A program made the position numbers and the translations under genes. The notes beneath the pieces are model-generated. The model ran no database searches. It had not been told where the DNA came from and saw only the letters and a program-made list of their open reading frames with translations. Of a DNA stretch of 64,000 bases, positions 655 to 33,222 are shown piece by piece (the stretch's first letter is position 1; every line of letters begins with the position of its first letter). Origin of the DNA: Bremia lactucae (taxonomy: Eukaryota > Oomycota > Peronosporomycetes > Peronosporales > Peronosporaceae); assembly GCF_004359215.1 (NCBI RefSeq), contig NC_090612.1, forward strand, positions 1,030,546-1,094,545, read 5' to 3'.

Positions 655-740
655 ACTTCACAATTTGCCAGCTACTGCTCAAGTCAAATCCAGAGAATAC
701 CCTCTCACCATCCTTTCTTTCGATCCCGCCTCTTTTAACC

Positions 741-3299: not shown

Positions 3300-6200
3300 A
3301 GTTTTCTCGAACTCGATAACATGGAGCAACATCAGTGTTGTTACCGTGAACACTAATGGCATCAAGAAAAATGGGCACTTGTTTATCGAGAGCGTGCTCT
3401 CCAAGCACTCGTTGTCGTGTGTCCAAGAAACCAAGTTCGGTGACAGCAACAATCTTTCCACTTTCACATTCCACCTCGACTCAAGCTTCAAAAACAAGGT
3501 CTTCGTGAACGACCCCAACTCGCACCTGGATCGACCCACGCGAGGAAGGAGCAATGGAGTGCTCACGGCGCTCCGCTCTGACTTTCCCGGCTTTGACACC
3601 GCTGTCGAGATCCCACGGCTTTCGATAGCAGGCCGCTACCTTGTAGTAAAGGTGATGGTTGCAAATGCTCCCATCTACATCCACAACGTCTATGCGCCTG
3701 TTGATCGCCAAGAAAAACAACAATTTTTCTCGAGCTTGGAAACCGAGGGGTTCGAGGATCATGCGACGCACTTTGTGTTGGGTGATCTGAACACTCCGTT
3801 AGACCCACGACTCGACTCTTCATCTCCTGACCTTCGCTATGACCCAGGTCGATCTAGCTGTCTCGAGTGGCTGGCGAAGCTAGGCGTTGTCGATGCTTGG
3901 CGTATCCACTTTGACACTAAGCGCGTCTTCACAGGCCCTCTTCCACGAAAGAATCGACTGGACTACATCCTGTTGTCCGAAGCATTCTACGAACGCTTCT
4001 ACGAAGACTCCAGATACTTTTTACCGAAGCATGCTGGTGATCACCTCGCACACAGCGTAAACTTAAGGTCGGGCTCTCAGTTGCACGGTCGAGGGTATTG
4101 GAAGTTCCCCCGGTACATGCTGGAGTATCCTGTGGTAGTGTCTGCGATCGAAAAAGAAGCCGAGATGATACGGGACAAACTGCAGACGTCAACAAATCCT
4201 GGCAAGGTCTGGGAGAAGTGGAAGAAAAGCATCAAGGCCCAACTCCAAGACGTCCAGAAGAAGCTCCGGATGCAAGACAATCAAGTTGTTGAAGAGGCTC
4301 GGGTCCTTTTAGACCAAGCTGCTGCTCAGTATCGTAGCGTTGCTAGTCACTTAAATCGGGAGCACTTCGACGAAGCCATGAGGAACTATAAGGATACGGT
4401 CATGCGGACGAGTCAATACAACCAAGACACCGCCTTTGACTTCCAAGCGGCTAATCCTGAAAAATCGACCAAGCACTTCTTCCGTCCACTGGACACGAGC
4501 TTGCGAAGGGTCTCGATTGAGGAAGTAACGACACCGAGTGGTAGTGTTTCGACAAACCCTCACGAGATTTCTCTTCGTTTCCTGGAGCACTGGGGTTCCG
4601 AAATGGGAGACCCAAATAGTCCATCAGGAACGGCTCCTCCACCTGACGATGCAAAGCAACGGAGACTCCTCGCATCCATAGTAAAATTTGTATCGGAGAC
4701 CGACCGTTCACTTCTGAGCTCGCCGATCACCGCCTCTGATCTGGCGAGTGCAATTCGCCATATGAAAGCAACTTCGGCACCAGGTCTGGACGGATTGACG
4801 GCAGGTTTCTACCAGGTAGCTCCAGACGTGTTTGGCGAATGTCTGCGTATCGTGTTCAAAGATCAACTTCAGCGTGGGGTGCTCCTTCCGTCTCAGCGCA
4901 AGTCAGCAGTAGTGCTTTTACACAAGAAGGGATCTCGAGCGGAGCCTAGCAACTATCGGCCCATCGCACTCGTGCAGGTCGATGTAAAAGTGCTATCAAA
5001 GGCTCTGACGTACCGACTGCAGCAAGTGATCGGCGACTTAATCCACCCCGACCAGAAAGGCTTTGTCAAGGGACGCTCGATCCATCACCACGTCCGCTTC
5101 CTCGCAGATTTGCAAGACCTCGTGACGAGTATTGACGAAGAAGCATACGCGCTGTTCTTGGACTTCGAAAAGGCGTTCGACCGAGTCAACTGGGAATACA
5201 TGCTCCGGGTTCTTGATCGAATGGGGTTTGGCACGGGGTTTATTCAGTGGATCCGGCTCCTGTACACCAAACCAGCTGCGCATCTCATCATCAACCAGAA
5301 CATCCAGCCCGCACTACATCCCACGCGAGGTGTGAAGCAAGGGGATCCGTTGTCTGCGCTGCTCTTTATCTTGACGATCGAGCCTTTGGGGAACCTGCTT
5401 CGCTCTCATGAGGAGTATGGCGTGTGTCTGAATGCCGACCACACCTGCACAAACCTGTTCTTCGCGGATGACTCAACCCTCCTGGCCAGCTCAATATCAA
5501 ACCTACAAGCACAACTTGGGATCGTGAAGGAGTACTGCAAGGGCTCCGGAGCGAAACTCAATATTACCAAGTCGGTGCTTTTGACGCTGAACCGGAGTCA
5601 TACATGTCCACCACTTCCAGGAATGCGAACGCTAGGTCGCACGGAAACGGTCATATATCTTGGCATTCCGTTCAGTCAATCGTCCGTGGATAATGCTCTC
5701 GTGGAGTTCCTCGAGAAGCGATTCTATGATGGCTTCAAGATGTGGTACAGGCGGGCACGAACACTTAGGGGACGGCTCCTGGTTGCCCAAACGATGGTGC
5801 TTTCCCGGATGTGGCATTATACACAACATGTGTCGCTCCCAGTACCAGTAGTGAAGAGATGGCAGTCGATGCTGAACCGGTTTGTGCTCAGTCGTAAGTA
5901 CGATCGCGAGGCATCGCATATCCAGCTCATTCCACGCGAATTCTTGCACCAACGACGCAGTGACGGTGGTCTTCAGATTCCGTGTCTGGAGGCACATCTG
6001 AAAAAACAGAGGCTTCAGCTCGTGCTGCAGTTTGTCAGCGCGGCGGGTGCTTCCAATGTTAGAACCTGGACAACAGCAGGTACCGAACTGCTCAAATTAG
6101 TAGTTCCACCCACGGGTGGATACGGCGCTCTAGACTTCCTCACGATCTCTCCGCTTCGGCATAAAGATATGATAAAGTGGAAAAAAATTTCCCATTGGTG

Positions 6201-7431
6201 GCGAACGACTTGGATTTGGTGGTACAAGCTGCGGTGGGAAATCACGTGGAAAGATCTTCCTTTGAGTGAACGCGCTTGGTACGGCCTTCGGCAGCCGATC
6301 TGGTTCAACTTTGACGCGGAACTTCACTACGAGAAGACACCACGGAATCCCACTAACTCAGCTCACCGTCGGTGCATTGGGATGGTTCCAGAACCCCAAC
6401 GAAGTTTTCGTCTGCATGTTTCAAGAGTCTTCAACGTGCGTTCATTAGCTGACTTCATGCGCGAAGATTGTGCTTGGCCAACACAGCACGACTTTGTGGA
6501 GCGGCATATTGACTTCACGCTCGAGTATATGACTCTTGGGAAACAAATCAAGTGGCTGAAAGTGCTATACACCGAAGCCACGCAGATCGTCGAACGTCTG
6601 AGAGCGCGGGACGTTGTGAGGCAAGCCCCGCTGACTGGAAGTGGAGGAAGTGTTACACTACCGCATCTGGGATGCACGAGCGGCGACAAAGTGTTCCTGA
6701 TTCCATCGATCCCGCGACGAGCTATGCTCCGTGTGGTCTGGTCGCCACCGCTACCAACGAAACCGCACCCGATGACTATACACTCGCAACGTGTGAGTGA
6801 AGAGCAGATCAAGTCAATCGTAAATTACAGCAAGCATTTGCGAAAACTATTGCTGCCAATCTTCGAAGACCTGCAATTTCGTCTCGCGTTCCGTCTTCTG
6901 CCTGTACGAGCTCGGTTCTGGTTCCTGGAAGCTCTTCAACCACGCATACAATACTGCGTGCGTCACGGGTGCGATGCCATTGAGACGGAGAAACATTTGT
7001 TCTTTGAGTGCACTCTTGCAGCACAACTGTGGAGTCAAGCGAACCAGCTGGTATTTCCGCTTTTCCATACGAGACCATCTTGGGCTAACATCGCCTTGGC
7101 CACGAAGTTGCCCGTGCGTAATGAGTGGGATGACTGCGCTGGAGTCGTCCATGACGTTTGGCACACACTCCGCGCTGTCACACTTCACTTCATTTGGTCT
7201 GATCGAAATCGTTGCCTGTTTGACGGACGAGAGCCGACTCCTTTGCTCCCTGCGCTCCAAGTGATCTTCACAACGTTCTCGGCACACCTTCGGTTCTTCG
7301 ATAGACGCTTCTACAATAATGATGAAAAGCTAGCCATGACCAAGGTTGTGCGCGCGATGAGATCCCATCCTGCTTTTAAGAGGTTCACCGACCTCCACCC
7401 GGGCATCACCGAAATTCGCCATCAACGATAA
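3265..7431 (+). CDS. LINE1 ORF2: EEP endonuclease + reverse transcriptase
   Basis: The start given is the first open codon after an in-frame TGA at 3262. No ATG precedes the endonuclease; the conserved NTNGI lies at about 3346. Endonuclease (exonuclease-endonuclease-phosphatase fold) motifs are QETK, GDLNTPLD (about 3780), LDYIL and GDH (about 4036). Reverse transcriptase motifs are LLHKKGS, NYRPIAL, FLDFEKAFDRV (about 5156), GVKQGDPLSA and the catalytic FADDS (about 5460). A C-terminal Cys/His motif CVRHGCDAIETEKHLFFEC near 6955 fits the zf-RVT type. I find no RNase H. The layout fits L1/Tx1-like LINEs that nick the target and copy by target-primed reverse transcription. Relative to ORF1 it is in the +1 frame. 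The frame is unbroken, so the element may be recent. Confidence 0.85.
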   Translation, partial: RRSRSASPNVAKVFSNSITWSNISVVTVNTNGIKKNGHLFIESVLSKHSLSCVQETKFGDSNNLSTFTFHLDSSFKNKVFVNDPNSHLDRPTRGRSNGVLTALRSDFPGFDTAVEIPRLSIAGRYLVVKVMVANAPIYIHNVYAPVDRQEKQQFFSSLETEGFEDHATHFVLGDLNTPLDPRLDSSSPDLRYDPGRSSCLEWLAKLGVVDAWRIHFDTKRVFTGPLPRKNRLDYILLSEAFYERFYEDSRYFLPKHAGDHLAHSVNLRSGSQLHGRGYWKFPRYMLEYPVVVSAIEKEAEMIRDKLQTSTNPGKVWEKWKKSIKAQLQDVQKKLRMQDNQVVEEARVLLDQAAAQYRSVASHLNREHFDEAMRNYKDTVMRTSQYNQDTAFDFQAANPEKSTKHFFRPLDTSLRRVSIEEVTTPSGSVSTNPHEISLRFLEHWGSEMGDPNSPSGTAPPPDDAKQRRLLASIVKFVSETDRSLLSSPITASDLASAIRHMKATSAPGLDGLTAGFYQVAPDVFGECLRIVFKDQLQRGVLLPSQRKSAVVLLHKKGSRAEPSNYRPIALVQVDVKVLSKALTYRLQQVIGDLIHPDQKGFVKGRSIHHHVRFLADLQDLVTSIDEEAYALFLDFEKAFDRVNWEYMLRVLDRMGFGTGFIQWIRLLYTKPAAHLIINQNIQPALHPTRGVKQGDPLSALLFILTIEPLGNLLRSHEEYGVCLNADHTCTNLFFADDSTLLASSISNLQAQLGIVKEYCKGSGAKLNITKSVLLTLNRSHTCPPLPGMRTLGRTETVIYLGIPFSQSSVDNALVEFLEKRFYDGFKMWYRRARTLRGRLLVAQTMVLSRMWHYTQHVSLPVPVVKRWQSMLNRFVLSRKYDREASHIQLIPREFLHQRRSDGGLQIPCLEAHLKKQRLQLVLQFVSAAGASNVRTWTTAGTELLKLVVPPTGGYGALDFLTISPLRHKDMIKWKKISHWWRTTWIWWYKLRWEITWKDLPLSERAWYGLRQPIWFNFDAELHYEKTPRNPTNSAHRRCIGMVPEPQRSFRLHVSRVFNVRSLADFMREDCAWPTQHDFVERHIDFTLEYMTLGKQIKWLKVLYTEATQIVERLRARDVVRQAPLTGSGGSVTLPHLGCTSGDKVFLIPSIPRRAMLRVVWSPPLPTKPHPMTIHSQRVSEEQIKSIVNYSKHLRKLLLPIFEDLQFRLAFRLLPVRARFWFLEALQPRIQYCVRHGCDAIETEKHLFFECTLAAQLWSQANQLVFPLFHTRPSWANIALATKLPVRNEWDDCAGVVHDVWHTLRAVTLHFIWSDRNRCLFDGREPTPLLPALQVIFTTFSAHLRFFDRRFYNNDEKLAMTKVVRAMRSHPAFKRFTDLHPGITEIRHQR

Positions 7432-7488
7432 CAGCTTGACACGCGCAGGCTGTGCGCCTGGTTATCGGATGCAGTGGTCGCACGCAAA

Positions 7489-8082
7489 TCACACTGATGG
7501 CGTTCCGTTCAGCGAAGACCCAGCCTGCCACTCGACATTGGCGACCATCCTCAGTGAAGGATCGACGGTGTCGTCTTTGGCGTTGCTGCCGCCCGTTGCA
7601 AGCGAAAACTGGTTGGCATCACCGTCACTTTTGTCACCACAGCTGTCAATGTCGCTGTCGCTCCCATTAGAGCTGCTATCGTTGCTGTCACTGCCAGCAG
7701 TCATGACCGGCGCTTGGTCGCCGTCAGTGCAGACATTGCCAGAAGCGTCGCCCAATTGATTGGGCGACCCGTGACCTCTATCATTGTTGTCATTGTCAGT
7801 AGTCGCAAGCGGCTATTGGCCGTTACCGCTACAGACGTTGCCGGTATCATCCATTGGTTGGACAGTCGATATGGCTTTACCGTTCGCCTCGCCTGCCTTC
7901 TCGTCCTCGCCGTTCACGTCCGCGCTCGCTGCCGTGCTCCCCTCAGGGCTCATGCCCCCCGTCTCCGCAAAGGGTGCAGCCGGAAACATTACAGTCCGCA
8001 GAAGGGAGCTCGGCGTCGAGTCGGCGATCCCGGTTTGGTTTGAGTCGGCTGGGTCAGCGGTGCGAGTGAGTTTGGCGGCCAT
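7489..8082 (-). pseudogene. Broken minus-strand ORF in the LINE1 3' region
   Basis: An ATG at 8082 opens a frame (MAAKLTR...) that holds the motif LRTVMFPAAP..ETGGMSP and then Ser/Asp/Gly-rich acidic sequence. An in-frame stop occurs at 7813-7815 and the same frame continues to 7489. The motif recurs on the plus strand at about 16490-16560 in LINE2, so the sequence is a dispersed family and lies in opposite orientation in the two places. The function is unknown. It could be a fragment of another mobile element or captured host sequence. Confidence 0.45.
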
Positions 8083-8429
8083 TGTTGGATGTGCGCTGGA
8101 TCTGAAACACTGGGAAATGAGACAACTTGACACAGTGACCGATCCCGCGATGCACTATCGGACGACGAAGTTGGACTCTGCCCTAACTCGCCACCTACAA
8201 GGATCGCAGAGATCGGTCGCAAGGTGCGGACACTTCTGTCGGGACACGGCTGATTCTCCTGCTGTATGTATACCTGTATACACAAGGGTTAGTGAATTTC
8301 ACTATACTCTACAGTATCTACAGTACTCACCCATCTAAGTGCGATTCTACTTGCGCTTCACGTGGCAAATTCGAAAGTGAGCTCCGATACCTATGCATTT
8401 CGATATCGGTATTAAGAGGATTTTCAAAA

Positions 8430-8503
8430 TTCCCTTGTGGGGATCGAACCCACGATCTACAGCATGGAATAAGAGCTACATACCGACTGAGCTACAACGC
8501 ACC
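8430..8503 (-). pseudogene. tRNA-like sequence with mismatched acceptor
   Basis: The T-arm (GTGGG TTCGATC CCCAC) and D-arm (GTAGCTCAGTCGG) are clear. The 5' acceptor (GTGCGTT) does not pair with the 3' side (AAGGGAA), and the anticodon stem is poor. Its 5' strand would pair well with the 3' acceptor of the tRNA-like sequence at 17248-17318, and nearly the reverse also holds. Confidence 0.5.
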
Positions 8504-8663
8504 AAATGTTTCGACAACAATCTGGTATTTAACTGAAACTACTACCTACGGTACATCTTGTATATTACACATATATTTATTATATTTATGCTAGGTAGAT
8601 TGAGTAGTCTCTCCGTCTAATTCTAGTAATATAGACAACTTTCAACTGAGCTAAGGCGCCCGC

Positions 8664-9359: not shown

Positions 9360-9374
9360 CTGAGCTATAGGGGC
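9360..9374. repeat. Target-site duplication, left copy of LINE2
   Basis: CTGAGCTATAGGGGC. Read on the minus strand this is the 5' acceptor strand and start of the D-arm (A-box) of a tRNA gene. It is identical to 17548-17562. Gap sequence precedes it, so the duplication could be longer. Confidence 0.9.
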
Positions 9375-9481
9375 ACTTCTCAATTTGCCGGCTAACCCAC
9401 AAGTCGACTATTTCGAAGAACCCATATCGTTTAAGCTTCTTAGCTCCACAGCCTTAACCGCTTTCCCTTCCGCCAGCCATC

Positions 9482-12169
9482 ATGGAGAAACCAGCTTCTG
9501 CCTCTTCTCTCCTTCGTGCTGACAAGATCGCCTCTGTAGCATCTGATCCGGCTAAGGCCTTTGCTCTCAGCATCCCGTTCGATGCTGCAGCCGCTTACCC
9601 GCTCGAGATTTCTGCCGGAGCCAACTCCGCTGATCCCCGACTTGTCATCTCTGACGTCGGTGAAGAGCCTGCCGTAAGTATGCTGTCTTCTCCATCGTCT
9701 CCGCTCATGCCGGCGTCGCCTCCACTGCCCGCGCTTCCCATTCATGTGACTACTGGGTCACCTGGTGCTGGGAGGCGCTCCGACGAAGCTGACATGAGCG
9801 ATGCGACCGAACCAGTCGTATTGTCTCACGAAGCCCCGGATGACGAAGAAAAAGCGCCGTCTCCTCAATCACCGCCTACGGACGCTACTACTTATGTGGA
9901 GGCTGGTGATGGCGCTGCCTCGACTGATGCTGCTGACCAGCGTCCGACGATGGCTGACCTGCTGTTCCAGCAAGAGTCCATTCGCCGAGACCATGCAACT
10001 GTCGACGCCGCTCGTCGTCGCGTGGAGACTCCGAAGCCTCTCGCGCTTGACATTGAAGCGATCGAGCGCCAATATGCCGCCGGTTGTGACTGGTCTGGCA
10101 TTGTCGCTCGCATCGGTCAGTCTCGCCCGTACCCGCTCCCGCGCGCCAAGTTTGACATGGTAATTGAAACGGGGAAGGCGTTTGTGAAGACCCCACTGCA
10201 GAAGATAATGGCTGCACTCGTCGGCACGAGCCACGGAAACCGGGCGCTGAACCAGCTATACGAGGAGTTTCTCGTCGGCCAAGTGTCCAAAATGCCGGGA
10301 GGCAACCTTCGACTCAAGGTGAAAACGCAGGCCGCGTGTTTGAAGCTCGAGCGAACGACCGTCAGCATCCTTGGAGGCGTGTACCCGTTCAAGCCGTTCG
10401 ACGTCCTTGCGAACAAGTTTTTCTTGGACATCTCAAACGTCGACTCGGACACGGACACAGACCTGATGCTTCGCCGGCTATTTGATCTTGGTTGCCAGCC
10501 ACTATATGACACGTTCCGCGACGTAAACCTGGCGACCCGCCTCACGTCTGCGACATGGCGAGTCTTCTTCCGCTCTAACAAGTGTCCGCAGCCGCTGCTT
10601 TTGAACGGCTCGGTGTGCGACCAAGTAATCTTTGACAACAAGCTTCATCCGGCGCACGGCAAAGACGCGCCGTTTCAGTCGGAACGTCTCCCGTTCGGCT
10701 TTCGCTCAATCCATGGGATCGACTTAGGTACGTCAGAGACCAGCCCTCGTCGTTCATCGTCGAATGCGTCAACAACGAAGCCGTCAGTAAAGACACCAAA
10801 ATCCACACCAAAGCTTACTTCGAAGACACTTCAGCTGGCGGCGATCCCGCCACCGCTGGCGGCCGCTCGTGCCGGAACTCGTTTCTCCTCGCTCCGTAAC
10901 GCTGGCGAGGTTGAAGAGAAGAAGGAAAGTCAGCTCCAGCCAGGAGCTCAGCATGCCCACCAACTTGTGGCACATCAACTCGCAAAGAAGGTGATAGACA
11001 TCGACGACATCCTGTCGATCTCGACGTTCCAAGGGTCGTCAGGGAAGATTTCACCTCCCTCGAGTCCGACGACCGAATCGACTAAGATGCTGATGCTCAC
11101 GGACGGTTTCACGACCGTTAAGAATAAAAAGAAGCGCATGAGAGGAGGTGTCGACTTCTCAAGCATGCTAACAAAGCATATCCCGCGTCCGCTTGATGGT
11201 ATTGCGACTAAGAACTACTTCGCGGAGCTGCAAACGATGTCCGCATCGTTCCAGAGCTTTGACGCGACAGCTGATCCAAAGTATGGCATGCGACACCAAA
11301 TTACGCCAGCCGAAGTTAAGATGCCTGAGACGCTCAAGTCGTCAAAGGAGGCTGCTTTCTTCATGGAGAAGCGCCACACGAAGATCAGGAAGGCAAAGAA
11401 GGCGTCACCGGTGGTCGAAGTCGCGGAGGCGATGTTGAACGATGAGAACACCGCGTTGCTCAACACGCTCCCCGACCTTCTTGCGGTCGCCGACTGCAAG
11501 GTGGAAGGCACAGTGAAGATTTTAGAGAACGCGTCGAACCCAGACCACGTATTGAAGAAACTCGTGGAGTCGGGTCCGGCGTTTAACAGCGCGATGTCAC
11601 TCAAGATGGCTGGGTCTGGCAATGAGATCGCCGAGCTCGCCCAACTGCACATGATCAATCGTGTGCTGAGTGCGACGACGCCGAGCGAAGACGTTACGTT
11701 CAGCGTGAAGTGGAAGAAGCTGTTGGGAACAGCTGTGCCATCAAAGCGTGGAGAGCTGCTAAAAATCTGCGCTAAGTGGTGGACGTCAACGGATCAGGTC
11801 CGTGAGCTGTCCCGATTCACCAAGGCACTGAGTGTTTTTGAGCTCGCCCTGATGTCGGCAGCACCGACAATCTTCGCAAACGACCACTGGATTCAGTTCG
11901 TCACCGGCGAACCCGTTCAATGGGTCCCAGCTCACCACGCGCGCTTGCTACACCCCAATACTCTCCTGAAGCTGCTGAGGTCAGACCTCGGCGCACTGTG
12001 CATGGAGCACTGGAGCCAAATCCAGTGGCAAGGTCACCTTCTTGATGAACTTGAGGAGCTTCGCAAGCTTGAGGGTGAGTACCCGGTCGATGAGTCGGTG
12101 CTGAAGCTCCAGGTCGAAGACGACGGGTCTGTGACGCTAGTCGCTGGCGGCCTTGCCACTCGCTGCTAA
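9482..12169 (+). CDS. LINE2 ORF1 protein, 895 aa
   Basis: The ATG at 9482 follows the short 5' UTR. Layout is as in LINE1: a variable, Ser/Pro/Ala-rich acidic N-terminus (~155 residues), then the conserved IEAIERQYA section, the KMPGGNLRLKV...LGGVYPF...SNVDSDTD block, and a C-terminal section with PAHHARLLHPNTLL. It has no zinc knuckle. The proposed role is nucleic-acid binding and RNP assembly, from position only. Conservation with LINE1 and LINE3 is strong outside the N-terminus and the region after HGKDAPF. Confidence 0.85.
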   Translation: MEKPASASSLLRADKIASVASDPAKAFALSIPFDAAAAYPLEISAGANSADPRLVISDVGEEPAVSMLSSPSSPLMPASPPLPALPIHVTTGSPGAGRRSDEADMSDATEPVVLSHEAPDDEEKAPSPQSPPTDATTYVEAGDGAASTDAADQRPTMADLLFQQESIRRDHATVDAARRRVETPKPLALDIEAIERQYAAGCDWSGIVARIGQSRPYPLPRAKFDMVIETGKAFVKTPLQKIMAALVGTSHGNRALNQLYEEFLVGQVSKMPGGNLRLKVKTQAACLKLERTTVSILGGVYPFKPFDVLANKFFLDISNVDSDTDTDLMLRRLFDLGCQPLYDTFRDVNLATRLTSATWRVFFRSNKCPQPLLLNGSVCDQVIFDNKLHPAHGKDAPFQSERLPFGFRSIHGIDLGTSETSPRRSSSNASTTKPSVKTPKSTPKLTSKTLQLAAIPPPLAAARAGTRFSSLRNAGEVEEKKESQLQPGAQHAHQLVAHQLAKKVIDIDDILSISTFQGSSGKISPPSSPTTESTKMLMLTDGFTTVKNKKKRMRGGVDFSSMLTKHIPRPLDGIATKNYFAELQTMSASFQSFDATADPKYGMRHQITPAEVKMPETLKSSKEAAFFMEKRHTKIRKAKKASPVVEVAEAMLNDENTALLNTLPDLLAVADCKVEGTVKILENASNPDHVLKKLVESGPAFNSAMSLKMAGSGNEIAELAQLHMINRVLSATTPSEDVTFSVKWKKLLGTAVPSKRGELLKICAKWWTSTDQVRELSRFTKALSVFELALMSAAPTIFANDHWIQFVTGEPVQWVPAHHARLLHPNTLLKLLRSDLGALCMEHWSQIQWQGHLLDELEELRKLEGEYPVDESVLKLQVEDDGSVTLVAGGLATRC

Positions 12170-15100
12170 GGCGGACTCGGCTACACCTAACTGGACAAAC
12201 GTTGGTGTTCTCACTGTGAACACCAACGGCGTAAAGAAAAACGGCCACCTCTTGATCGAGCATCTGCTCTCCAGGTACTCGGTATCTTGTCTCCAAGAGA
12301 CCAAGTTTGCCGACCGCCACCACCTTGACACCTTCCGCTTCCACCTCGAGTCGATGTTCGCGCACAAGCTGTTCGTGAGTGACGAGAATGCGCTGCTCGA
12401 TCGACCGACGCGAGGTCGAAGTAACGGCGTCTTGACGCTGCTGCGCTCCGACTTTCCCGGCTTCGACTCAGCTGCCGAGGTTCCCCACCTGACAATCCCA
12501 AGCCGCTACCTCGTCGTACGTGTGATGGTCGAGCTCGCCCCCATTTACATACACAATGTGTACGCGCCGGTGGACAAACAAGAAAAACAAGCCTTCTTCT
12601 CGAGTTTGACGACAGAGGGCTTCGAAGAAGCCGCAACTCACTTAGTGCTCGGTGACCTGAACACTCCACTTGACCCAAGCCTCGACTGCTCCACGCCGGA
12701 CTTCCGCTGCGACCCGAGTCGCTCGAGTTGCCTTGACTGGTTGGCGCGGCTAGGCGTTGTTGACGCCTGGCGTATCCATAACGACTCGAAGCGCGTCTTC
12801 ACCGGCCCGATGCCCCGCAAGAACCGGCTCGACTACGTGCTTATGTCCGAGTCGTTCTGCAACCGATTCTTCCACGGCGCCAAGTACTTCAACCCAAAGC
12901 ACGCAGGCGATCACCTCGCGCACAGTGTCAGCTTTAAGTCTGGATCCCAGCTGCACGGCCGAGGGTATTGGAAGTTTCCACGATACCTTCTCGACTATCC
13001 ACAAGTCGTCTCGGCGATACAGCGCGAAGCCAGCGACATCCTCAAGAAGCTCCGGTCGGCATCGAACCCGGGAAGGCTGTGGGAGACATGGAAGGTAAGG
13101 ATCAAGTCGCAACTTCAGGACCTCCAGAAAAAACTCCGTACACAAGAGGCTCACGCCGTGGAAGAGGCTCGTGGTGCGCTTGACCGCGCAGCCGCGCAGT
13201 ATCGGACGGAGTCGGCCAAAGAGAACCGAGACGTGTACGAAGCCGCTATGCGCGAGTACAAGGCGACGGTGACAAGGTCGAGCCAGTACAGTCAAGACGC
13301 CTCCTTTGACTTTCAAGCCGCGAATGCTGAAAAGTCGACGAAGCACTTTTTCCGTCCTCTCGACACCAGCCTTAGGCGCGTCTCCATCGAGGAAGTCATC
13401 ACGCCAAGCGGACGCGTCTCTACCAACTCGCACGAGATCTGCCTCCGGTTCCTCGAGCACTGGGGTTCCGAGATGGGAGACGACAATAGCCCTGGCGGCA
13501 AGGCACTTCCGCTTAATGAGGTGACTCAACGCAAACTGCTGGACTCCGTCGTTCGAAAACTGCCTGAGCTTGACCGCGACATGCTGGACAGGGACGTCAG
13601 CGCGTCGGACCTCGAGCTGGCGATCAAGCACATGAAGGCAACTTCGTCTCCTGGGATGGATGGCTTGACGGCTGGCTTCTACCAGGTCGCGCCGGCAATT
13701 TTTGGCGAGTGTCTCGCGTTGATATTTAGGAACAGACTCGAGTGCGGGAAGCTTTTGGCGTCGCAACGCAAGTCGGCGGTGATCCTGCTGCACAAGAAGG
13801 GCTCCCGTGCTGACCCGGGCAACTATCGCCCGATCGCTCTGATCCCGGTCGACGTCAAGGTGCTGTCGAAGGCACTCACATTCCGTCTTCAGACTGTCAT
13901 CGGCAAGCTAATCCACCCCGACCAGAAAGGTTTCGTCCGTGGCCGCTCGATCCACCATCACGTTCGCTTCCTTGCAGATCTTCAGGACCTTGTGACCAGC
14001 CGCAACGAGGAGGCATATGCGCTGTTCTTGGACTTTCAAAAAGCGTTTGACCGCGTGAACTGGGAGTACATGTTCAAGATACTCAAGCGCATGGGCATCG
14101 GAGATGGCTTCATCCGCTGGATCAAGCTGCTGTACACCGACCCGCTCGCTCATCTCCTTATCAACGGCGAAGTTCAACCGGCACTACACCCAACACGTGG
14201 AGTAAAGCAAGGCGACCCGCTCTCTGCGCTGCTCTTTATCTTGACGATTGAACCGCTTGGTAGCCTGCTCCGATCGCACGAGGAATACGGTGTTTGCCTC
14301 AACGATGACCACACGGCGACGAGCATCTTCTTTGCAGATGACTCGACGCTCCTCGGTAGCTCCATCGCGAACCTGCAGGCTCAGCTCGATATCGTCAAAA
14401 CATACTGTAAAGGCTCCGGCGCGAAATTAAATATATCCAAGTCGGTGCTGCTGGCGCTGAATCGTAGCCTCGAGTGCCCGTTGATGCCGGATGTTCAGGT
14501 CCTCGGGCAGACGGAGTCGGTTAAGTACCTTGGTATCCCATTCAGCCAGTCATGTATGGACAGCCGTATTCTCGATTTGCTTGACCAACGCTTCTACGAC
14601 GGCTTCAAATCGTGGTATCGGCGCGCGCGGACATTGCGCGGCCGACTTCTCGTGGCGCAGACGATGGTGCTCTCGCGTTTGTGGCATTACACGCAGCACG
14701 TGTCGGTTCCGGCAGCCATTGTTCGTCGGTGGCAGTCGATGCTGAACCGCTTCGTGCTGAGTCGTAAGCACGACCGCAACGCCTCTCACATTCAGCTGAT
14801 CCCAAGCGAGTACTTGTACCGGCGACGCGGTGACGGAGGTCTTGGGGTACCGTATCTGGACGCGCAGCTCAAGCGACAACGACTTCAGCTCCTGCTTCAG
14901 TTCGTGCCTTCAGCTCAGTCGGCAGCGTCTCGAAATTGGACAACGCCAAGCGTGGAGTTGCTGCGCTCGATTCTCCCTCGTTACGGTGGATGCCACGCGC
15001 TCGATCTCCTGACGATATCACCACGGCGACACGGCGCCATGATTGACTGGCGCCACACGTCGAGATGGTGGAAGTCAACGCTGACTTGGTGGCACCGCAC

Positions 15101-16295
15101 ATGCTGGGAGATCACGTGGCATGACCTTCCGATTGAAGAGCGTGCCATTGATGGACTTCGACAACCGATCTGGTTCAACTCTAACGCTGAGCTACAGTAT
15201 GAACAGAAAACGCGCTTAGGCGCGGCAACGGCGCATCGACGGTGCCTCGGTATGGTGCCTGAGCCCCAGCGGAGCTTTCGACTTCATATTTCGCGCGTCT
15301 TCGGTCTCCGCTCGCTGGCAGACTTCACTTGTCACGGCAACGCGTGGCCGACTCAGCGCGAGTTTTCCGAACAACACGTGGACTTTTACCATAAGAGAGT
15401 GTCTCCAGGGCAGCAACTCCAGTGGCTGCGTGCCCTACACAGAGAGGCGACACAGATCGTGGATCGACTTGGTGCGCGATCTACTGTTCTGCCGACGCCT
15501 CGTGGAGTTACCTTGAGTTTGGTACCGCACGTAGGCATAACGAGTAACGGAAAGCTGTGCCTGTTCCCAACGATACCAAAGTCGGCCGTCATAAGCATCG
15601 TTTGGACGCCAAAGCCGCCGCGGAAGCCGCACCCAATGAAGACTTACTCTGAAAGTGTGGACGAGAAGCAGATTAAAGCACACGTAAAGCTTTCAAAGCG
15701 ACTGCGAACGATCTTACTGCCAATCTTTGAGGATCTGCAGTGGCGCCTTGCTTTTCGACTGCTGCCGGTGCGCTCGCGCTTTTGGTTCTTGGAGCCCGCA
15801 CACACGAACATCCGAAAGTGCATTCGTGCCGGGTGCGACGCCATCGAGTCTGAACAGCACTTGTTCTTTGACTGCACACTCGCATCGCAACTCTGGAAGC
15901 AGGTGATCAAATTGTTCTCGAAATTTTTCGTTAAACGTCCCGCTTGGCTCGACATCGCGCTCGCGCGGAATATGCGTGTCCGAAACGAGTGGCAAGAACG
16001 CGAAGAGGTTGTCACTGACGTGTGGCATGTTCTCCGTGCGGTGACGCTTCACTTCATCTGGACTGACCGTAACCGGTGTCTGTTTGACGGCAGACACCCC
16101 ACACCAACATCGTTCGCACTCCAAGCAATTTGGACAACAGTTGCCGCTCACATTCGGTTCTTCCAACGCAGAGTGTACTCAACTGAAGCCCAGGTCTCTC
16201 TCCAGGGAGTTATCCGCCACCTGGAGTCCTGCTCATCCATCGAAGGTGAAGTCTTTTTTCTTCCCGGCTTCTCCAGTGTCCGCACACTCACTTAA
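12141..16295 (+). CDS. LINE2 ORF2: EEP endonuclease + reverse transcriptase
   Basis: The frame opens after in-frame TGA and TAG at 12132 and 12138 and overlaps the ORF1 stop (TAA at 12167-12169) in the +1 frame. The first conserved motif (VNTNGVK) is near 12216 with no ATG before it. Endonuclease motifs are QETK, GDLNTPLD (about 12651), LDYVL and GDH. Reverse transcriptase motifs are LLHKKGS (about 13786), FLDFQKAFDRV (about 14026), GVKQGDPLSA and FADDS (about 14333). The terminal CIRAGCDAIESEQHLFFDC lies near 15820. The frame is intact to the stop at 16295. Confidence 0.85.
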   Translation, partial: SLAALPLAAKADSATPNWTNVGVLTVNTNGVKKNGHLLIEHLLSRYSVSCLQETKFADRHHLDTFRFHLESMFAHKLFVSDENALLDRPTRGRSNGVLTLLRSDFPGFDSAAEVPHLTIPSRYLVVRVMVELAPIYIHNVYAPVDKQEKQAFFSSLTTEGFEEAATHLVLGDLNTPLDPSLDCSTPDFRCDPSRSSCLDWLARLGVVDAWRIHNDSKRVFTGPMPRKNRLDYVLMSESFCNRFFHGAKYFNPKHAGDHLAHSVSFKSGSQLHGRGYWKFPRYLLDYPQVVSAIQREASDILKKLRSASNPGRLWETWKVRIKSQLQDLQKKLRTQEAHAVEEARGALDRAAAQYRTESAKENRDVYEAAMREYKATVTRSSQYSQDASFDFQAANAEKSTKHFFRPLDTSLRRVSIEEVITPSGRVSTNSHEICLRFLEHWGSEMGDDNSPGGKALPLNEVTQRKLLDSVVRKLPELDRDMLDRDVSASDLELAIKHMKATSSPGMDGLTAGFYQVAPAIFGECLALIFRNRLECGKLLASQRKSAVILLHKKGSRADPGNYRPIALIPVDVKVLSKALTFRLQTVIGKLIHPDQKGFVRGRSIHHHVRFLADLQDLVTSRNEEAYALFLDFQKAFDRVNWEYMFKILKRMGIGDGFIRWIKLLYTDPLAHLLINGEVQPALHPTRGVKQGDPLSALLFILTIEPLGSLLRSHEEYGVCLNDDHTATSIFFADDSTLLGSSIANLQAQLDIVKTYCKGSGAKLNISKSVLLALNRSLECPLMPDVQVLGQTESVKYLGIPFSQSCMDSRILDLLDQRFYDGFKSWYRRARTLRGRLLVAQTMVLSRLWHYTQHVSVPAAIVRRWQSMLNRFVLSRKHDRNASHIQLIPSEYLYRRRGDGGLGVPYLDAQLKRQRLQLLLQFVPSAQSAASRNWTTPSVELLRSILPRYGGCHALDLLTISPRRHGAMIDWRHTSRWWKSTLTWWHRTCWEITWHDLPIEERAIDGLRQPIWFNSNAELQYEQKTRLGAATAHRRCLGMVPEPQRSFRLHISRVFGLRSLADFTCHGNAWPTQREFSEQHVDFYHKRVSPGQQLQWLRALHREATQIVDRLGARSTVLPTPRGVTLSLVPHVGITSNGKLCLFPTIPKSAVISIVWTPKPPRKPHPMKTYSESVDEKQIKAHVKLSKRLRTILLPIFEDLQWRLAFRLLPVRSRFWFLEPAHTNIRKCIRAGCDAIESEQHLFFDCTLASQLWKQVIKLFSKFFVKRPAWLDIALARNMRVRNEWQEREEVVTDVWHVLRAVTLHFIWTDRNRCLFDGRHPTPTSFALQAIWTTVAAHIRFFQRRVYSTEAQVSLQGVIRHLESCSSIEGEVFFLPGFSSVRTLT

Positions 16296-16305
16296 GAAGA
16301 ACGAT

Positions 16306-17044
16306 ATGAAAAACACGGGGTTCAAAATGCTGTTTGGTAGTTTCGCCAAATCGATGGCTCCCATGAGCGTCATTTTTGAATTTTCCAGATTCTGCTCAAG
16401 CGTACCCTCGACCACAAAAATGTCTTCCCAGCTGGTTTCCGCTGCATCATCCACTCACTGCCCCAAGGTTGGCTCAAAGTCTCTCTCTCCACTGCGGACT
16501 GTAATGTTTCCGGCTGCACCTGAAAAGGAGACGGGGGGCATGAGCCCTGGGGGGGGAGCGACGGAGAGTCTGACTGCCGGGCAGGCAGACGGCAATGTTG
16601 AAAGCGGAAACTCAGCTGGCGAAGATAGCGAATGTTCGAGAATGGACGGGAGCAAGGGCTCGGACAGCGAAGAGGGATGCGCTTCGCCGGACAAGGAGAG
16701 CGGGAGTATGGCTAGCGAACAGAGCGAGGCCTTCATGCACAAGCACAGTACCAACAGTGTTAATGATGAGACCAAGACCGAAAGTGGCGACGTTGCATTT
16801 CTCGACCTCAGGGACCTCCTGCCTGCTAATTGCGAGGATGACGTGAATGAATGCGAAAGCATGACTGAGGACGTGAGTTGTGTAAACGCAATATGCAAGC
16901 TTACTGCTTTGCCATACACGTGACCGAGGACGAAGATATCATCGTGCGTGAGGAACGCATCGACTCCGGCATTGGCGACCAGACTTGGCTGCGCATGATC
17001 AAGTTTATCCGCAGGGTGAAGGTAAAACAAAACTCTAGTGAGTG
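16306..17044 (+). pseudogene. Decayed accessory ORF in the LINE2 3' region
   Basis: The ATG at 16306 opens about 206 codons ending at 16923. It contains LRTVMFPAAP..ETGGMSP, shared with the minus strand at about 8000, followed by Gly/Ser/Glu-rich acidic sequence. From about 16880 a different frame continues with HVTEDEDIIVREERI and ends at TGA 17042-17044, so a frameshift near 16880-16915 is likely. No domain is recognised. Confidence 0.4.
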
Positions 17045-17247
17045 ACCCGACCTCTGTACACCTGGAGCCGTTGTGCCTTTGCCTCTTAAGGTTCATTCAC
17101 CCGGGAGACTGGACAGAAGGGACTCCGCCAATTGGACTTAGCGTACTCGCGGTGGGCCTTTCTCACCTCTCCAAGTCTGTTCGGCTAAGGTTATGAACCT
17201 ATATCGGCCATTCTACGTTATGGAGGTAGCAATCCGGGACCAAATGT

Positions 17248-17318
17248 TGTGCGCTGTGGGGTTCGAACCCACGACCTCCCGCTTGGAGAGCGGGTGCTCT
17301 ACTGTCTGAGCCAGGGAA
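17248..17318 (-). pseudogene. tRNA-like sequence inside the LINE2 3' region
   Basis: The T-arm is perfect (GTGGG TTCGAAC CCCAC) and there is a five-pair anticodon stem CCCGC/GCGGG with loop TCTCCAA. The apparent anticodon is TCC with an unusual C at position 33. The D-arm GCTCAGACAGTAGAGC is good. The 5' acceptor (TTCCCTG) does not pair with the 3' side (AGCGCAC). Confidence 0.55.
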
Positions 17319-17547
17319 GATTGATTTTTTAACGAAGATCGCCTTTACCTCGACACATCCTGGCCAGAAAGAATACATTTCGACACATGATCAAGAAACT
17401 TTCAAGCAACATTCAAGCAACATCACATACATAAACGGTGCTAATTTAAAAACTGTGTAGACTAGTATTTATATCAGTAAGATAAGTCAGTTGCTGGTAG
17501 ATTGAGAGGACACTCAGTCTATTCTAACGTAATAGACAAACTTTAAA

Positions 17548-17562
17548 CTGAGCTATAGGGGC
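17548..17562. repeat. Target-site duplication, right copy of LINE2
   Basis: CTGAGCTATAGGGGC, identical to 9360-9374. Beyond it, at about 17600-17625, lies an isolated B-box-like arm CAGGGTTCGAGCCCTTG with no complete tRNA around it. Confidence 0.9.
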
Positions 17563-18363: not shown

Positions 18364-18435
18364 TGCCCCCAGGCAGGATTGAACTATCGACCTTCCGCTT
18401 ACTAAGCGGGTGCTTTTCCACTGAGCTAAAGGGGC
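18364..18435 (-). tRNA. tRNA-Thr(AGT) abutting LINE3
   Basis: The reverse strand has acceptor GCCCCTT against TGGGGGC, D-arm AGCTCAGTGGAAAAGC, anticodon loop TTAGTAA (AGT) on a four-pair stem, and T-loop TTCAATC. The T stem is slightly weak (one A-C). LINE3 begins one base beyond its 5' end, so the tRNA gene itself is complete. Confidence 0.72.
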
Positions 18436-18521
18436 CACTTCTCAATTTGCCGGCAACCCACAAGTCAAATTTCAGAAGAACCCTTTCCCCTCTCCCCCCA
18501 GCTGCTTTTTGGTTTTTACTC

Positions 18522-21134
18522 ATGGAAAGATCACGAGCCGCCTCTTTTTCGCATATGCAGCTGCCGCGTGTCGCAACTGGCTCCAATGTTGGGTTTACGC
18601 CCAGTATCCAGCCGGATGTCTCACACAGCCCATCCTCCTCCAAAATTTTGGTAGGAACTGGATCTTCAGCGGATGGGTCTCATGGCGCTGAACATGGCGT
18701 TACTTCGTCTCACCCGCTTGTGATTCCTTCTCCTCCGGCTCCCGAGCTCCCTCGAAAGGAGGGTGCGCTGGATGTGATGATAAGTGTTACACCGAATGTG
18801 CCTAAGAACGTCGATCGGAATGTGTCTGGCTCGTCTGCTGAGGTGCCTTCACCTGACGACGCATCCATGGAGCTTTCTCCTTCACCTACTGCAGCTCCGC
18901 TTCCAAGCTCGGATTCACGCCCAACGTTGGCTGACGTGATAATGCGGCAGGAAACTGTCCGGCGCGACGCTGCTCAAGCTGATGCTATTCGCCGTCGTGT
19001 CGAAACTCCCAAACCTCTCGCCTGCGACATTGAAGCAATCGAGCGCCAATATGCGACAGGCGGAGACTGGTCGTTTATCGCGTCTTATATGGATCAAGCA
19101 CGTCCTTATGCGCTTCCGCGTGCAAAATTTGACATGATAATTGACACTGGCCGGACGCTTGCGAAGACTTTACTGATGAAGATCATGGCATCGCTTTCTG
19201 GCAAAAGCCACGGCAATGAACACCTCGAAGAACTTTATAAGCAATTTGAGATCGGTCAGATCTCCAAGCTTCCTGGCGGAAATCTTCGCTTGAAGGTCAA
19301 GTCGAGGGACGCGTGCCTGCGCTTAGAGCGCACGAAAGTAAATATACTTGGTGGTGTCTACACTTTCAAGGAATTTGACATTCTCGGCGGACGGTACTTT
19401 ATCGACATCTCCAATGTCGACTCGGACACGGAAACCGACGTTATCTTGCACCGCTTGTTCCTCATTGGATGCAAACCGGTATATGACACGTTTCGCGAAG
19501 GGAACCTGGCGACTGGTATTACGTCCGCAACTTGGCGAGTGTATTTTCTGCCGTCCTCGTGCCCAAGCGCGCTGATGGTAAATGGATCTGTCTGCGATCA
19601 AGTGTGCTTCAACAACAAGCTGCACCCTGCACATGGCAAGAACGCTCCGTTCCAGTCTGAGCGTTTACCTTATGGCTATCGCTCTCACCATGGAATCGAT
19701 CTTGGTGCACCTGCATACGTTTTTCCTCCGCCAAATGTTGTTTCTAAGACTGGTCTTCCTAAGACTGGCCAGCCCCAACGACCGCAATCAACGAGTAAAG
19801 CACAAGCTGCGGATGCAGCTGCGCAGCTGAAAGAAGCCTCGAGCTCAACCTCACTGCAACGAGCAGTCGAGCAAATTAAACAAAAGGAAGGTCAGCTTCA
19901 GCGTGGAGCTCAGCATGGACAGCAACTCGTTGTCAGTGATAGTACCACGCCTCTCAACACTACCGAGGCGTTGTCTATTTCGACTTACAGCGGCTCCAAC
20001 GGAAGGATTACTCCGCCCAGTAGCCCAAAGAATGTAAAGAAACCCCTCGTCCTCACTAATGGTCCGGATGACGGCTTCACTACCGTGTCAAACAAGAAGA
20101 AGCGCGCGCGCAACGGTTTCGACTTCTCCAACATGACAGTGAAGGTAGAGACGCTTCCTCTGAATGGCATAGCCACGACCAACTACTTCCAAGCACTCCA
20201 AACGATGGAGGTAACGTTTACGCCAAAGAACGTGACGGCTGACAAGAAGTACGGTGTTCGCTACCAAGTGGTTCCTATTGACGTGAAGCGCCCGGACGTG
20301 GTGAAAACGTCGTCTGAGTCTGCTTTCTTCATCGAAAAGCGCCACACTAAGATTAAGAAAGCATCAAAAGCGTCGTCTATTATGGAAGTGACCGAGTCGA
20401 TGGTAAATGACGAGAACACCGCGCTTCTCAACACTCTCCCAGACTGTCTGGTGAGAGCAGACAAGAAGGTCGACGGTGTGTGCAAGCTTCTCGAAAACGT
20501 CACGAATCCCGACCACATTATGAAAAAGGCGGTGGAGTGTCCTCTAGCCTTTAGCAGCGCAGTTTCGTTGAAGATGGCTGACACTGGAGACGTAATTGCC
20601 GAGATCGCACAACTGCATGTGATTAACCGTGTTCTATGTGCATCGCAACCGACCGAAGACATAACATTTAGCACGAAATGGGCAAGATTTATGGGTATGG
20701 CAGTCCCGTCGAAGCGCAAGGATATCTTCAAAATATGTGCAAAGTGGTGGACGTCGTCGGACTCGATCCGGGAGCTATCCCGAGCCACCAAGGCCTTAGG
20801 TATTTTCGAGATCGCACTCATGTCGATTGCGGCGACACTTTTCACCAACGACCACTGGATTCAATATATCACGGGACAGCCAGTCGACTGGATTCCGGCG
20901 CATCACACGCGACTTCTTCATCCAAACACACTCTTGCGTCTCTTGCGATCAGACCTCGGATCGTTCTGCATACAGCAATGGAGCGAAGTACAATGGCAGG
21001 GTTATCTGTTGGATGACCTTGAAGAACTTCGCAAGCTCGATGGCTTCTACTTGGAAGACTCTTCAGTGCTCCAGCTCCAGTTTCTTAATGGTGAAGTAGT
21101 GATGGTGGCAGGGGGCTTAACCCGTCATTACTAA
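18522..21134 (+). CDS. LINE3 ORF1 protein, 870 aa
   Basis: The ATG at 18522 (MERSRAAS) is preferred, because codons further upstream in the same frame read through the tRNA-Thr gene. The Ser/Pro-rich N-terminus is followed by the conserved IEAIERQYA block, the KLPGGNLRLKV/LGGVYTF/SNVDSDTE block and the C-terminal PAHHTRLLHPNTLL block, as in LINE1. It has no zinc knuckle. It is intact in this copy; the second, partial copy is frameshifted. Confidence 0.85.
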   Translation: MERSRAASFSHMQLPRVATGSNVGFTPSIQPDVSHSPSSSKILVGTGSSADGSHGAEHGVTSSHPLVIPSPPAPELPRKEGALDVMISVTPNVPKNVDRNVSGSSAEVPSPDDASMELSPSPTAAPLPSSDSRPTLADVIMRQETVRRDAAQADAIRRRVETPKPLACDIEAIERQYATGGDWSFIASYMDQARPYALPRAKFDMIIDTGRTLAKTLLMKIMASLSGKSHGNEHLEELYKQFEIGQISKLPGGNLRLKVKSRDACLRLERTKVNILGGVYTFKEFDILGGRYFIDISNVDSDTETDVILHRLFLIGCKPVYDTFREGNLATGITSATWRVYFLPSSCPSALMVNGSVCDQVCFNNKLHPAHGKNAPFQSERLPYGYRSHHGIDLGAPAYVFPPPNVVSKTGLPKTGQPQRPQSTSKAQAADAAAQLKEASSSTSLQRAVEQIKQKEGQLQRGAQHGQQLVVSDSTTPLNTTEALSISTYSGSNGRITPPSSPKNVKKPLVLTNGPDDGFTTVSNKKKRARNGFDFSNMTVKVETLPLNGIATTNYFQALQTMEVTFTPKNVTADKKYGVRYQVVPIDVKRPDVVKTSSESAFFIEKRHTKIKKASKASSIMEVTESMVNDENTALLNTLPDCLVRADKKVDGVCKLLENVTNPDHIMKKAVECPLAFSSAVSLKMADTGDVIAEIAQLHVINRVLCASQPTEDITFSTKWARFMGMAVPSKRKDIFKICAKWWTSSDSIRELSRATKALGIFEIALMSIAATLFTNDHWIQYITGQPVDWIPAHHTRLLHPNTLLRLLRSDLGSFCIQQWSEVQWQGYLLDDLEELRKLDGFYLEDSSVLQLQFLNGEVVMVAGGLTRHY

Positions 21135-22348: not shown

Positions 22349-22349
22349 N

Positions 22350-32781: not shown

Positions 32782-32782
32782 C

Positions 32783-33148: not shown

Positions 33149-33221
33149 TGGAGAAGCAGGGTATCGATCCCTGTACCTCTCGCATGCTAAGCGAGCGCTC
33201 TACCATTTGAGCTACATCCCC
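33149..33221 (-). tRNA. tRNA-Ala(AGC), unit 2, complete beside a SINE
   Basis: Canonical copy. The SINE inserted at its 5' end, yet all 73 positions remain because the 15-bp target duplication repeats its 5' bases. Confidence 0.92.
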
Positions 33222-33222
33222 T
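33208..33222. repeat. SINE target-site duplication, left
   Basis: TGAGCTACATCCCCT, the tRNA-Ala A-box start through acceptor plus one base; identical to 33506-33520. Confidence 0.9.

Follow-up and report, generated by a model that had tools for sequence, protein, structure and literature searches.

Candidate L1-group LINEs with a preference for the A-box of tRNA genes in Bremia lactucae

The LINEs encountered in a 64,000-nt stretch of Bremia lactucae DNA (the window, numbered from its first letter) are very probably members of a set of L1-group APE LINEs that prefer to insert at the tRNA A-box, at the start of the D-arm, a reading which, together with the mechanism proposed below, jointly explains their sequence context. 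The sequence-only reading had placed one of them (LINE2) between identical 15-bp copies and had taken the minus strand of this repeat for a tRNA 5' end; both statements were confirmed, as CTGAGCTATAGGGGC is present without mismatch at 9360-9374 and 17548-17562 (window search), and its minus strand, GCCCCTATAGCTCAG, is the 5' end of tRNA-Thr.

LINE2 and its neighbours in the window

The features of LINE2 are:

9360..9374, plus strand: left copy of the target duplication; its minus strand is tRNA-Thr nt 1-15
9375..17547, plus strand: a full-length LINE2 that runs antisense to the tRNA
9482..12169, plus strand: ORF1, 895 aa
12153..16295, plus strand: ORF2, 1380 aa, uninterrupted, encoding an APE endonuclease and a reverse transcriptase (Pfam); its TTG start was set mechanically
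17256..17313, minus strand: tRNA-like stretch without acceptor stem, antisense in the 3' UTR (matching positions 8-63 of the 71 in the Rfam tRNA model)
17488..17547, plus strand: 3' tail with a possible hairpin, ending AACTTTAAA
17548..17562, plus strand: right copy of the target duplication; beyond it lies a tRNA-Thr upstream region resembling that of an unoccupied copy (L022)

By chance, matches to CTGAGCTATAGGGGC with up to two mismatches would be rare (mean 0.03 in 100 shuffles of the window); a third match, with one mismatch, lies at 18421-18435 and adjoins LINE3. As a run of N adjoins the left repeat, the tRNA body is unreadable there, and the two sister copies (L067 and L068, 99% and 98% identical to LINE2 over the 107-nt 5' end) have a complete tRNA-Thr(AGT) at the corresponding position. 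Furthermore, a LINE2 copy on C11 is flanked by a matching 16-bp duplication at tRNA-Thr. ORF1 had no Pfam match (E up to 0.01), and the antisense tRNA-like stretch recurs in all 7 long LINE2-type 3' ends (window copy included), being also the sole match in an Rfam scan of 9300-17700 (E up to 0.5), which found no 5' self-cleaving ribozyme. The tail hairpin, suggestive as a common recognition structure in LINE2, in a distant LINE family and in SINE tails, was discarded, the fold energies of six tails being unexceptional (z -0.2 to -2.1).

Two further LINEs lie on either side:

655..8645, plus strand: LINE1, with the same 5' start as LINE2 and a similar 3' tail
3346..7431, plus strand: LINE1 ORF2 (APE and RVT_1; Pfam)
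18364..18435, minus strand: tRNA-Thr(AGT), one base left of LINE3 (ARAGORN)
18437..28562, plus strand: LINE3, as traced from its 5' start to where ORF2 ends

The earlier suggestion that LINE1 and LINE3 share the start of LINE2 and end before the same CTGAGCT motif was borne out: ACTTCNCAATTTGCC begins all three elements (655, 9375 and 18437) and three tails stop before CTGAGCT (8645, 17547 and 31310), with the qualifications that the tail at 31310 may be part of an element other than LINE3 and that the flanks do not match as duplications in either LINE1 (left CTGAGCCAAAGCACC, right CTGAGCTAAGGCGCC) or LINE3 (left CTGAGCTAAAGGGGC, right CTGAGCTACAGCCCC). The flanks of a LINE2 copy on C13 are likewise unmatched.

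Insertion sites across the genome

Searching the genome with the LINE2 5' end returned 145 places at up to one mismatch (against 14 for a backwards control), of which 31 exact and 69 one-mismatch places were listed; 48 of these 69, together with the 45 further places, lie outside the survey, and they include at least one genuine element (C13:1722286, found behind L130). Among 19 one-mismatch places that were fetched, together with one exact place, 17 did not appear by eye to be these elements; the two retained (L098 and L105) were added once their flanks were already known, for which reason the exact places are also tallied separately. Two exact matches (L047 and L091) resemble another repeat and were removed from the 36 flanks, leaving 29 exact places that look like element starts. 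Fifteen of these adjoin a tRNA 5' end, 2 a tRNA-derived repeat and 12 neither; with five one-mismatch elements added (n=34) the counts become 18, 3 (tRNA-like) and 13, and 11 of the 18 tRNA-adjoining starts have complete ARAGORN tRNAs, which begin 0-3 nt from the element. Some of these copies are not independent of one another, C1 and C4 having a block in common. As to the refuting condition that most full-length copies elsewhere lack tRNA sequence, LINE2-type starts (seven full-length matches plus L075, matching over 50 nt) lie at a tRNA in 5 of 8 cases, at a tRNA-like repeat in one and at neither in two, and LINE3-type starts (the six longest matches) in 5 of 6, the sixth being tRNA-like, while a third subfamily, grouped in this analysis, does so in 3 of 8 (tRNA-Leu and tRNA-Ser, 5 at neither). 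At these Leu and Ser sites, where one junction (the 5' flank) was read, the A-box does not contain GCTCA. The 3' end could not serve as an unbiased probe: AGACAACTTTCAA had too few matches (5, versus 70 for its backwards control), two of which are LINE1-type tails, both before CTGAGC.

Nine tRNA kinds in total were found as insertion sites, five of them with duplications at both ends (tRNA-Thr, Ala, Phe, Met and a degenerate Lys) and the others from one junction (tRNA-Leu, Ser and Cys from the 5' flank, Trp from the right flank of L080). The distant LINE family (amino-acid identity to the three window ORF2s 38-43% for the longer copy and 36-52% for the shorter) is represented at the same point in tRNA-Thr by two copies of 1988 and 483 bp, both truncated at the 5' end and each with a perfect 15-bp duplication. 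Moreover, 10 uninterrupted tRNA-Thr copies have the same downstream flank as 6 occupied 3' junctions and represent empty sites (the 15-mer has 47 copies in the genome, 30 of which were compared; L020 is altered at the far end), and serial insertions were observed. Inspection of tRNA flanks by eye showed no native upstream motif that the LINE start has in common with tRNA genes.

A SINE with a similar tail has the same kind of target in the window:

33149..33221, minus strand: tRNA-Ala(AGC), target of the SINE insertion, still whole (ARAGORN)
33208..33222, plus strand: left 15-bp SINE duplication, TGAGCTACATCCCCT
33223..33504, plus strand: tRNA-derived SINE, tail ending CTTTCAA, antisense at the tRNA-Ala A-box
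33506..33520, plus strand: right 15-bp SINE duplication

Across the 21 SINE copies read (not all independent, since the six SINE-tRNA-Thr blocks read are identical), 16 lie at tRNA or tRNA-derived sequence (8 at tRNA genes, 6 at tRNA-derived repeats and 2 at a tRNA end beside the tail of another element), 4 at neither and 1 is ambiguous; 17 have duplications of 13-18 bp, and one SINE site in tRNA-Thr (L112) has GCTCG in place of GCTCA. An A-box-like motif stands in register in 22 of 35 LINE flanks and 13 of 21 SINE flanks, as compared to 3.4% of 97,405 random positions, and is present at 4 of the 13 non-tRNA LINE sites. The proposed target specificity for the D-arm or A-box is therefore upheld beyond the window as a preference (by duplications, truncated copies, empty sites, the variety of tRNA kinds and the SINEs), but one that is partial and not absolute.

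Proposed cut position and insertion mechanism

Comparison of junctions puts the nick directly behind GCTCA, separating A14 from position 15; outside tRNA sequence, 4 of the 5 sites that have duplications show a nick after TCA. In six insertions (one LINE and five SINE copies) the target has no C at the corresponding position and the right junction still reads C; the C that opens the repeat was probably brought in by the element as its final base, so that the duplication is best given as about 14 bp plus one ambiguous base. Insertion leaves the tRNA gene whole, with the element 0-3 nt upstream of it.

We propose that the APE endonuclease would nick the tRNA sense strand at this point, and that the freed 3' end would prime reverse transcription from the 3' tail of the element RNA, target-primed reverse transcription being suggested by the perfect duplications of 5'-truncated copies. 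The other strand would be cut near the first tRNA base, giving the observed duplication of about 13-18 bp. As the duplication spans the cut-off start of the tRNA, the copy on the element's 5' side rebuilds a whole tRNA gene, which would stay open to further insertion. The order of elements suggests that arrays would grow with the younger element beside the tRNA, and SINEs with similar tails would use the LINE machinery in trans.

Recognition would rest mainly on DNA sequence, namely that surrounding TCA within an A-box context, with or without a contribution from Pol III factors. The alternative that Pol III transcription factors at tRNA genes tether the elements, the A-box cut marking merely where the complex sits, is in our judgement unlikely, though it carries some weight: most sites, many of them with a B-box, are tRNA genes or repeats derived from tRNA, Leu and Ser genes without GCTCA are targeted as well, and yeast and amoeba retrotransposons use the Pol III machinery (reviewed in PMC5911963). 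It fits less well with a nick that falls at one base, or nearly so, across the tRNA kinds with both ends known, with sites that have no B-box match and keep the same cut register (e.g. the LINE2 copy on C1 in AACAGCTCA), and with tRNA-His, where no element adjoins the 5' end in 18 distinct window flanks (22 genes, a small sample), while tRNA-Ala in the same array has an insertion. Far less probable is an origin of the identical flanks by recombination or gene conversion between tRNA copies; tRNA genes do occur in arrays, and the mismatched flanks of LINE1, LINE3 and the C13 copy would fit an exchange between elements at different tRNAs, but duplications are also present at non-tRNA sites (C1, C16 and the SINEs L114, L117 and L129), and truncated copies have both duplications and matching empty sites. 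That the adjoining tRNA belongs to the element, as a promoter captured from a tRNA, and is not its target, as the close spacing might suggest, is already refuted by a tRNA kind that varies within one family (Thr, Lys and Ala), by the recurrence of the first bases of the same tRNA at the 3' end and by the truncated copies.

Affiliation and significance

Based on their sequences, LINE1-3 are assigned to the L1-group APE non-LTR retrotransposons, with a reverse transcriptase closer to L1 than to R2 (the two named clades compared). In ORF2 the APE precedes the reverse transcriptase (Exo_endo_phos 2e-8, RVT_1 2e-36; Pfam), the catalytic motifs of the N-terminal endonuclease line up with those of human L1 ORF2p, and among solved structures human L1 ORF2p matches best (2e-60; R2 6e-24 or weaker). 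Target duplications and 5'-truncated copies, hallmarks of the L1 group, were both found. More distant protein matches (30-38%) often have PF13966 beside APE and reverse transcriptase (among the best 120 of 434), close relatives at the protein level occur in Globisporangium splendens, and the three window ORF2s had no Pfam RNase H match (E up to 0.01). No relatives were confirmed in viral contigs.

Human L1 has the same ORF2 layout and is not known to be tRNA-specific; the targets of the Tx1 clade include the U2 and 5S genes. The latter clade is described as target-specific with an APE, Keno being named for U2 (PMC4640811). Dictyostelid elements (TRE5, TRE3, NLTR-A and NLTR-B) resemble the window LINEs as non-LTR elements at tRNA genes, and NLTR-A of D. 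purpureum inserts 2-6 bp upstream of the mature tRNA, a range that overlaps with ours; TRE5 and NLTR-B, however, lie about 50 bp upstream and TRE3 downstream, whereas here the first cut would fall inside the tRNA, and NLTR-A and NLTR-B have an RNase H after the reverse transcriptase (PMC5006619). In the passages of that source on NLTR and TRE elements, an internal A-box cut that rebuilds the tRNA does not appear. NeSL-1_TV (tRNA-Pro), LIN15_SM (tRNA-Arg) and LIN25_SM (tRNA-Glu) are tRNA-gene-specific non-LTR elements (PMC4640811) of a restriction-like endonuclease lineage, in which this domain follows the reverse transcriptase in place of an APE and each element is reported for one tRNA kind, unlike the present type. 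Dada elements also target tRNA (and snRNA) genes, but are DNA transposons with a transposase (PMC8869645, PMC3706591). Among the matches listed from the open-licence PMC full-text literature (Repbase being outside this scope), no title or abstract describes LINEs at the tRNA A-box in oomycetes, nor was an L1-group A-box family with SINE partners found among the matches listed from open PMC literature.

Although tRNA-targeting LINEs as such are already known, these elements would add another tRNA safe haven, in which a promoter element common to many tRNAs is cut and the gene rebuilt, a haven that is neither at a distance nor gene-destroying. As the address is short, conserved DNA and the endonuclease domain is small, the origin of APE target specificity becomes directly testable, with a set of LINEs and SINEs that have a common target at hand. 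Judged from sequence, tRNA rebuilding may be how the elements spread without harm to the host. More tentatively, and as a proposal that we hold at somewhat below even confidence, an old oomycete L1-group lineage and its SINE partners would read the A-box as an address in many tRNA genes, with cuts spanning about nt 1-14, so that each insertion would repair its target and the tRNA gene would become a reusable docking site, the supply of tRNA being kept while elements accumulate as tandem stacks upstream of that gene; the element's first 15 bases, which are conserved and come to form the new upstream flank of the tRNA, would then be retained because they allow the tRNA to stay transcribed. The finding may also be relevant to the large tRNA arrays that have been described in oomycetes (PMC9584435).

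The LINE2 element and its tRNA-Thr target

Within the Bremia lactucae assembly (115.9 Mb in 220 contigs, of which C3, carrying the window at 1030546-1094545, comprises 7,296,540 bases), LINE2, the second of three L1-group LINEs in the window, is framed by two copies of CTGAGCTATAGGGGC, a repeat for which the chance expectation is 0.03 at up to 2 mismatches. Read on the minus strand, this repeat corresponds to nt 1-15 of tRNA-Thr; the sequence-only reading, which placed LINE2 between exact 15-bp duplications of tRNA sequence, is thereby borne out.

Features of the window
about 8426-8505, minus: tRNA-like sequence in the LINE1 3' UTR
9360-9374 and 17548-17562: CTGAGCTATAGGGGC copies
9375-17547: complete LINE (LINE2)
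9482-12169: LINE2 ORF1
12153-16295: LINE2 ORF2, uninterrupted
17256-17313, minus: tRNA-like stretch in the LINE2 3' UTR (Rfam match of 42.1 bits over positions 8-63 of 71)
32434-32538: complete U6 snRNA gene (100 bits)
33223-33504: tRNA-derived SINE within a tRNA-Ala gene (33149-33221), 15-bp duplication

For ORF1, Pfam gave nothing at an E cut-off of 0.01; ORF2 encodes an APE endonuclease (Exo_endo_phos, 2e-8) followed by a reverse transcriptase (RVT_1, 2e-36). Its best solved relative is human L1 ORF2p (2e-60; R2 proteins 6e-24 or weaker), with which its endonuclease motifs align.

LINE2-type copies read at both ends
Window: 15-bp duplication, tRNA-Thr
C11:1619189-1628172: 16-bp duplication, tRNA-Thr
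C1:5731746-5724373: 15-bp duplication, no tRNA, site TGAGCTGTTGGATTT
C16:451693-459355: 17-bp duplication, no tRNA, site CTGATAGCTTTATGACT
C13:1834545-1841410 (if one element): flanks unmatched, tRNA-Lys left and a different site right

The left and right flanks of LINE1 and LINE3 in the window are likewise unmatched. LINE3 contains a direct repeat (19056-25641, 3293-bp spacing, one 300-nt stretch 100% identical) over ORF1 and the ORF2 start region, which is either a recent tandem duplication or an assembly error. Behind it, ORFs of 434 and 320 aa (29051-31310; neither matched by Pfam at an E cut-off of 0.1) precede a LINE-type tail ending in CTTTCAA at 31310; this is perhaps a separate, possibly non-autonomous element, whose 320-aa ORF may look chromodomain- or protease-like.

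Among 30 of the 47 genome copies of CTGAGCTATAGGGGC, we found a distant LINE family (tails ending in CCTTAACA or CCCTAACA) with two 5'-truncated copies, of 1988 and 483 bp (38-43% and 36-52% identical to the LINE1-3 ORF2s), in perfect 15-bp duplications at tRNA-Thr; the longer sits in a block also present on C4. Truncation at the 5' end together with a duplication is the hallmark of target-primed reverse transcription of LINEs. In the same sample, ten uninterrupted tRNA-Thr copies (one, L020, altered at its far end) share their downstream flank with six occupied 3' junctions, and an empty tRNA-Thr situated some 10 kb beyond the left edge of the window (L022) has nearly the downstream flank of LINE2.

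Target choice across the genome

The 5' start common to LINE1-3, ACTTCNCAATTTGCC, occurs exactly at 31 places, two of which (L047 and L091) resemble another repeat and were set aside. By our reading of the flanks, the remaining 29 adjoin a complete ARAGORN tRNA (8), a tRNA 5' end cut by N, mutated or with another element behind (7), a tRNA-derived repeat (2) or neither (12). Adding five one-mismatch elements (L067, L072, L075, L098 and L105, the last two chosen with flanks already seen) gave 18 tRNA (11 + 7), 3 tRNA-like and 13 neither among 34. ARAGORN called Thr, Lys, Leu, Cys and Ser; the seven incomplete neighbours read as Thr, Lys, Met and Ala. Grouped by the sequence after the shared start, LINE2-type starts (n=8) lay at tRNA in 5, tRNA-like in 1 and neither in 2, LINE3-type starts (n=6) at tRNA in 5 and tRNA-like in 1, and third-type starts (n=8, marked by GCTACTACGC or GCTTCTACGC) at tRNA in 3 (one Ser and two Leu, the latter separated by 2.2 kb of a single contig) and neither in 5. 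An A-box-like motif stood in register in 22 of 35 LINE flanks (L091 excluded; copies partly non-independent) versus 3.4% of 97,405 positions drawn at random from the window and the longer loci, a background that is if anything too high, since the sampled sequence is tRNA-rich.

At six insertions (one LINE, five SINEs) the right junction has a C where the target had none, hence this C is probably the element's own, which puts the end of the primer strand at A14, the tRNA base that follows GCTC, with position 15 next. One tRNA-Thr SINE site (L112) has GCTCG in place of GCTCA. Five of the duplication-bearing sites are not tRNA, and their primer ends read GCTCA, CTATCA (with one uncertain base), TAATCA, GATATA and AACTCA; TCA thus terminates four of the five, which speaks for recognition of the DNA sequence itself rather than for tethering alone. 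Guidance of the LINEs to tRNA genes by tethering to Pol III transcription factors, although unlikely in our estimation, gains from the third subfamily, whose tRNA-Leu and tRNA-Ser targets (a single, 5', junction read) lack GCTCA, and our confidence in the A-box reading is slightly lowered on that account. The LINEs very probably prefer the A-box of tRNA genes and would read it mainly as DNA sequence.

SINE partners and rebuilt targets

A genome search for the SINE (40 of 122 candidates scored, at least 42 matches) provided 20 best-scoring full-length copies besides that of the window. Duplications of 13-18 bp (2 mismatches or fewer) flank 17 of these 21, none such being found at L119, L122, L127 and L130. 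We classified the sites from their flanks as tRNA genes (8: Ala 2, Phe 2, Lys 2 with one degenerate, Thr 1, Met 1), tRNA-derived repeats (6), neither (4) and unclear (1), another two lying at a tRNA 5' end next to the tail of a different element; the two Phe sites may be one event, then copied. At tRNA or tRNA-like sites the SINEs are antisense to the tRNA, in one register within a few nt. An identical SINE-in-tRNA-Thr block (over the stretches printed) was read at six of at least seven places on several contigs (L001, L002, L009, L010, L026, L027), a segmental spread of the tRNA-SINE unit.

As the duplication covers tRNA nt 1-14 or 15, the whole tRNA gene is found on the element's 5' side, complete enough for an ARAGORN call in 11 cases. 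Such a rebuilt gene would be open to further insertion, as the serial orders suggest: tRNA-Thr, LINE2, 16-bp repeat and LINE3-type start (C11); tRNA-Ala, SINE, repeat (one mismatch) and LINE (C3); LINE1-type tail, repeat and SINE (C3:41609); and SINE (left flank non-tRNA), tRNA-Lys end and LINE start (C13:1722270). At 32710-47368 tRNA genes form an array, 22 of them tRNA-His and 2 called as tRNA-Ala, and no element was found at the 5' end of tRNA-His among its 18 distinct flanks. A U6-like fragment (about 9035-9093, minus) ends directly before the ACTGAGCC tRNA remnant, as if U6 sequence had inserted at its A-box position.

Antisense tRNA in 3' ends, relatives and known systems

The tRNA-like stretch of LINE2 recurs about 235 nt before the end in all seven long LINE2-type 3' ends (89-100% identical over nearly all 448 nt), without a match in the more distant L085 and L086 (about 70%); that of LINE1 is present in both copies read. 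Such antisense tRNA-like sequences may stem from read-through that left one element, crossed a tRNA and ran on into a truncated element beyond it. They would then be products of 3' transduction within element arrays; a landing site built into the LINE is another possibility.

Among the best 120 of 434 protein matches, many reverse transcriptases named Globisporangium splendens are 73-87% identical, Plasmo[para] (name incomplete; one match) 78%, Peronospora matthiolae 75%, Phytophthora fragariaefolia 50% and Aphanomyces 41-49%. The reverse transcriptase is 87% identical to a G. splendens protein but 78% to one named Plasmo[para], a closer host relative (entries P0001 and P0016 of this set); paralogy, strong constraint and horizontal transfer are alternatives.

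Non-LTR elements specific for tRNA are already known, namely NeSL-1_TV, LIN15_SM and LIN25_SM (PMC4640811) and the dictyostelid TRE and NLTR elements (PMC5006619). Relative to these descriptions, the present LINEs stand apart as L1-group APE elements with a probable cut at the A-box, the use of many tRNA kinds, the repaired target and the SINE partners.
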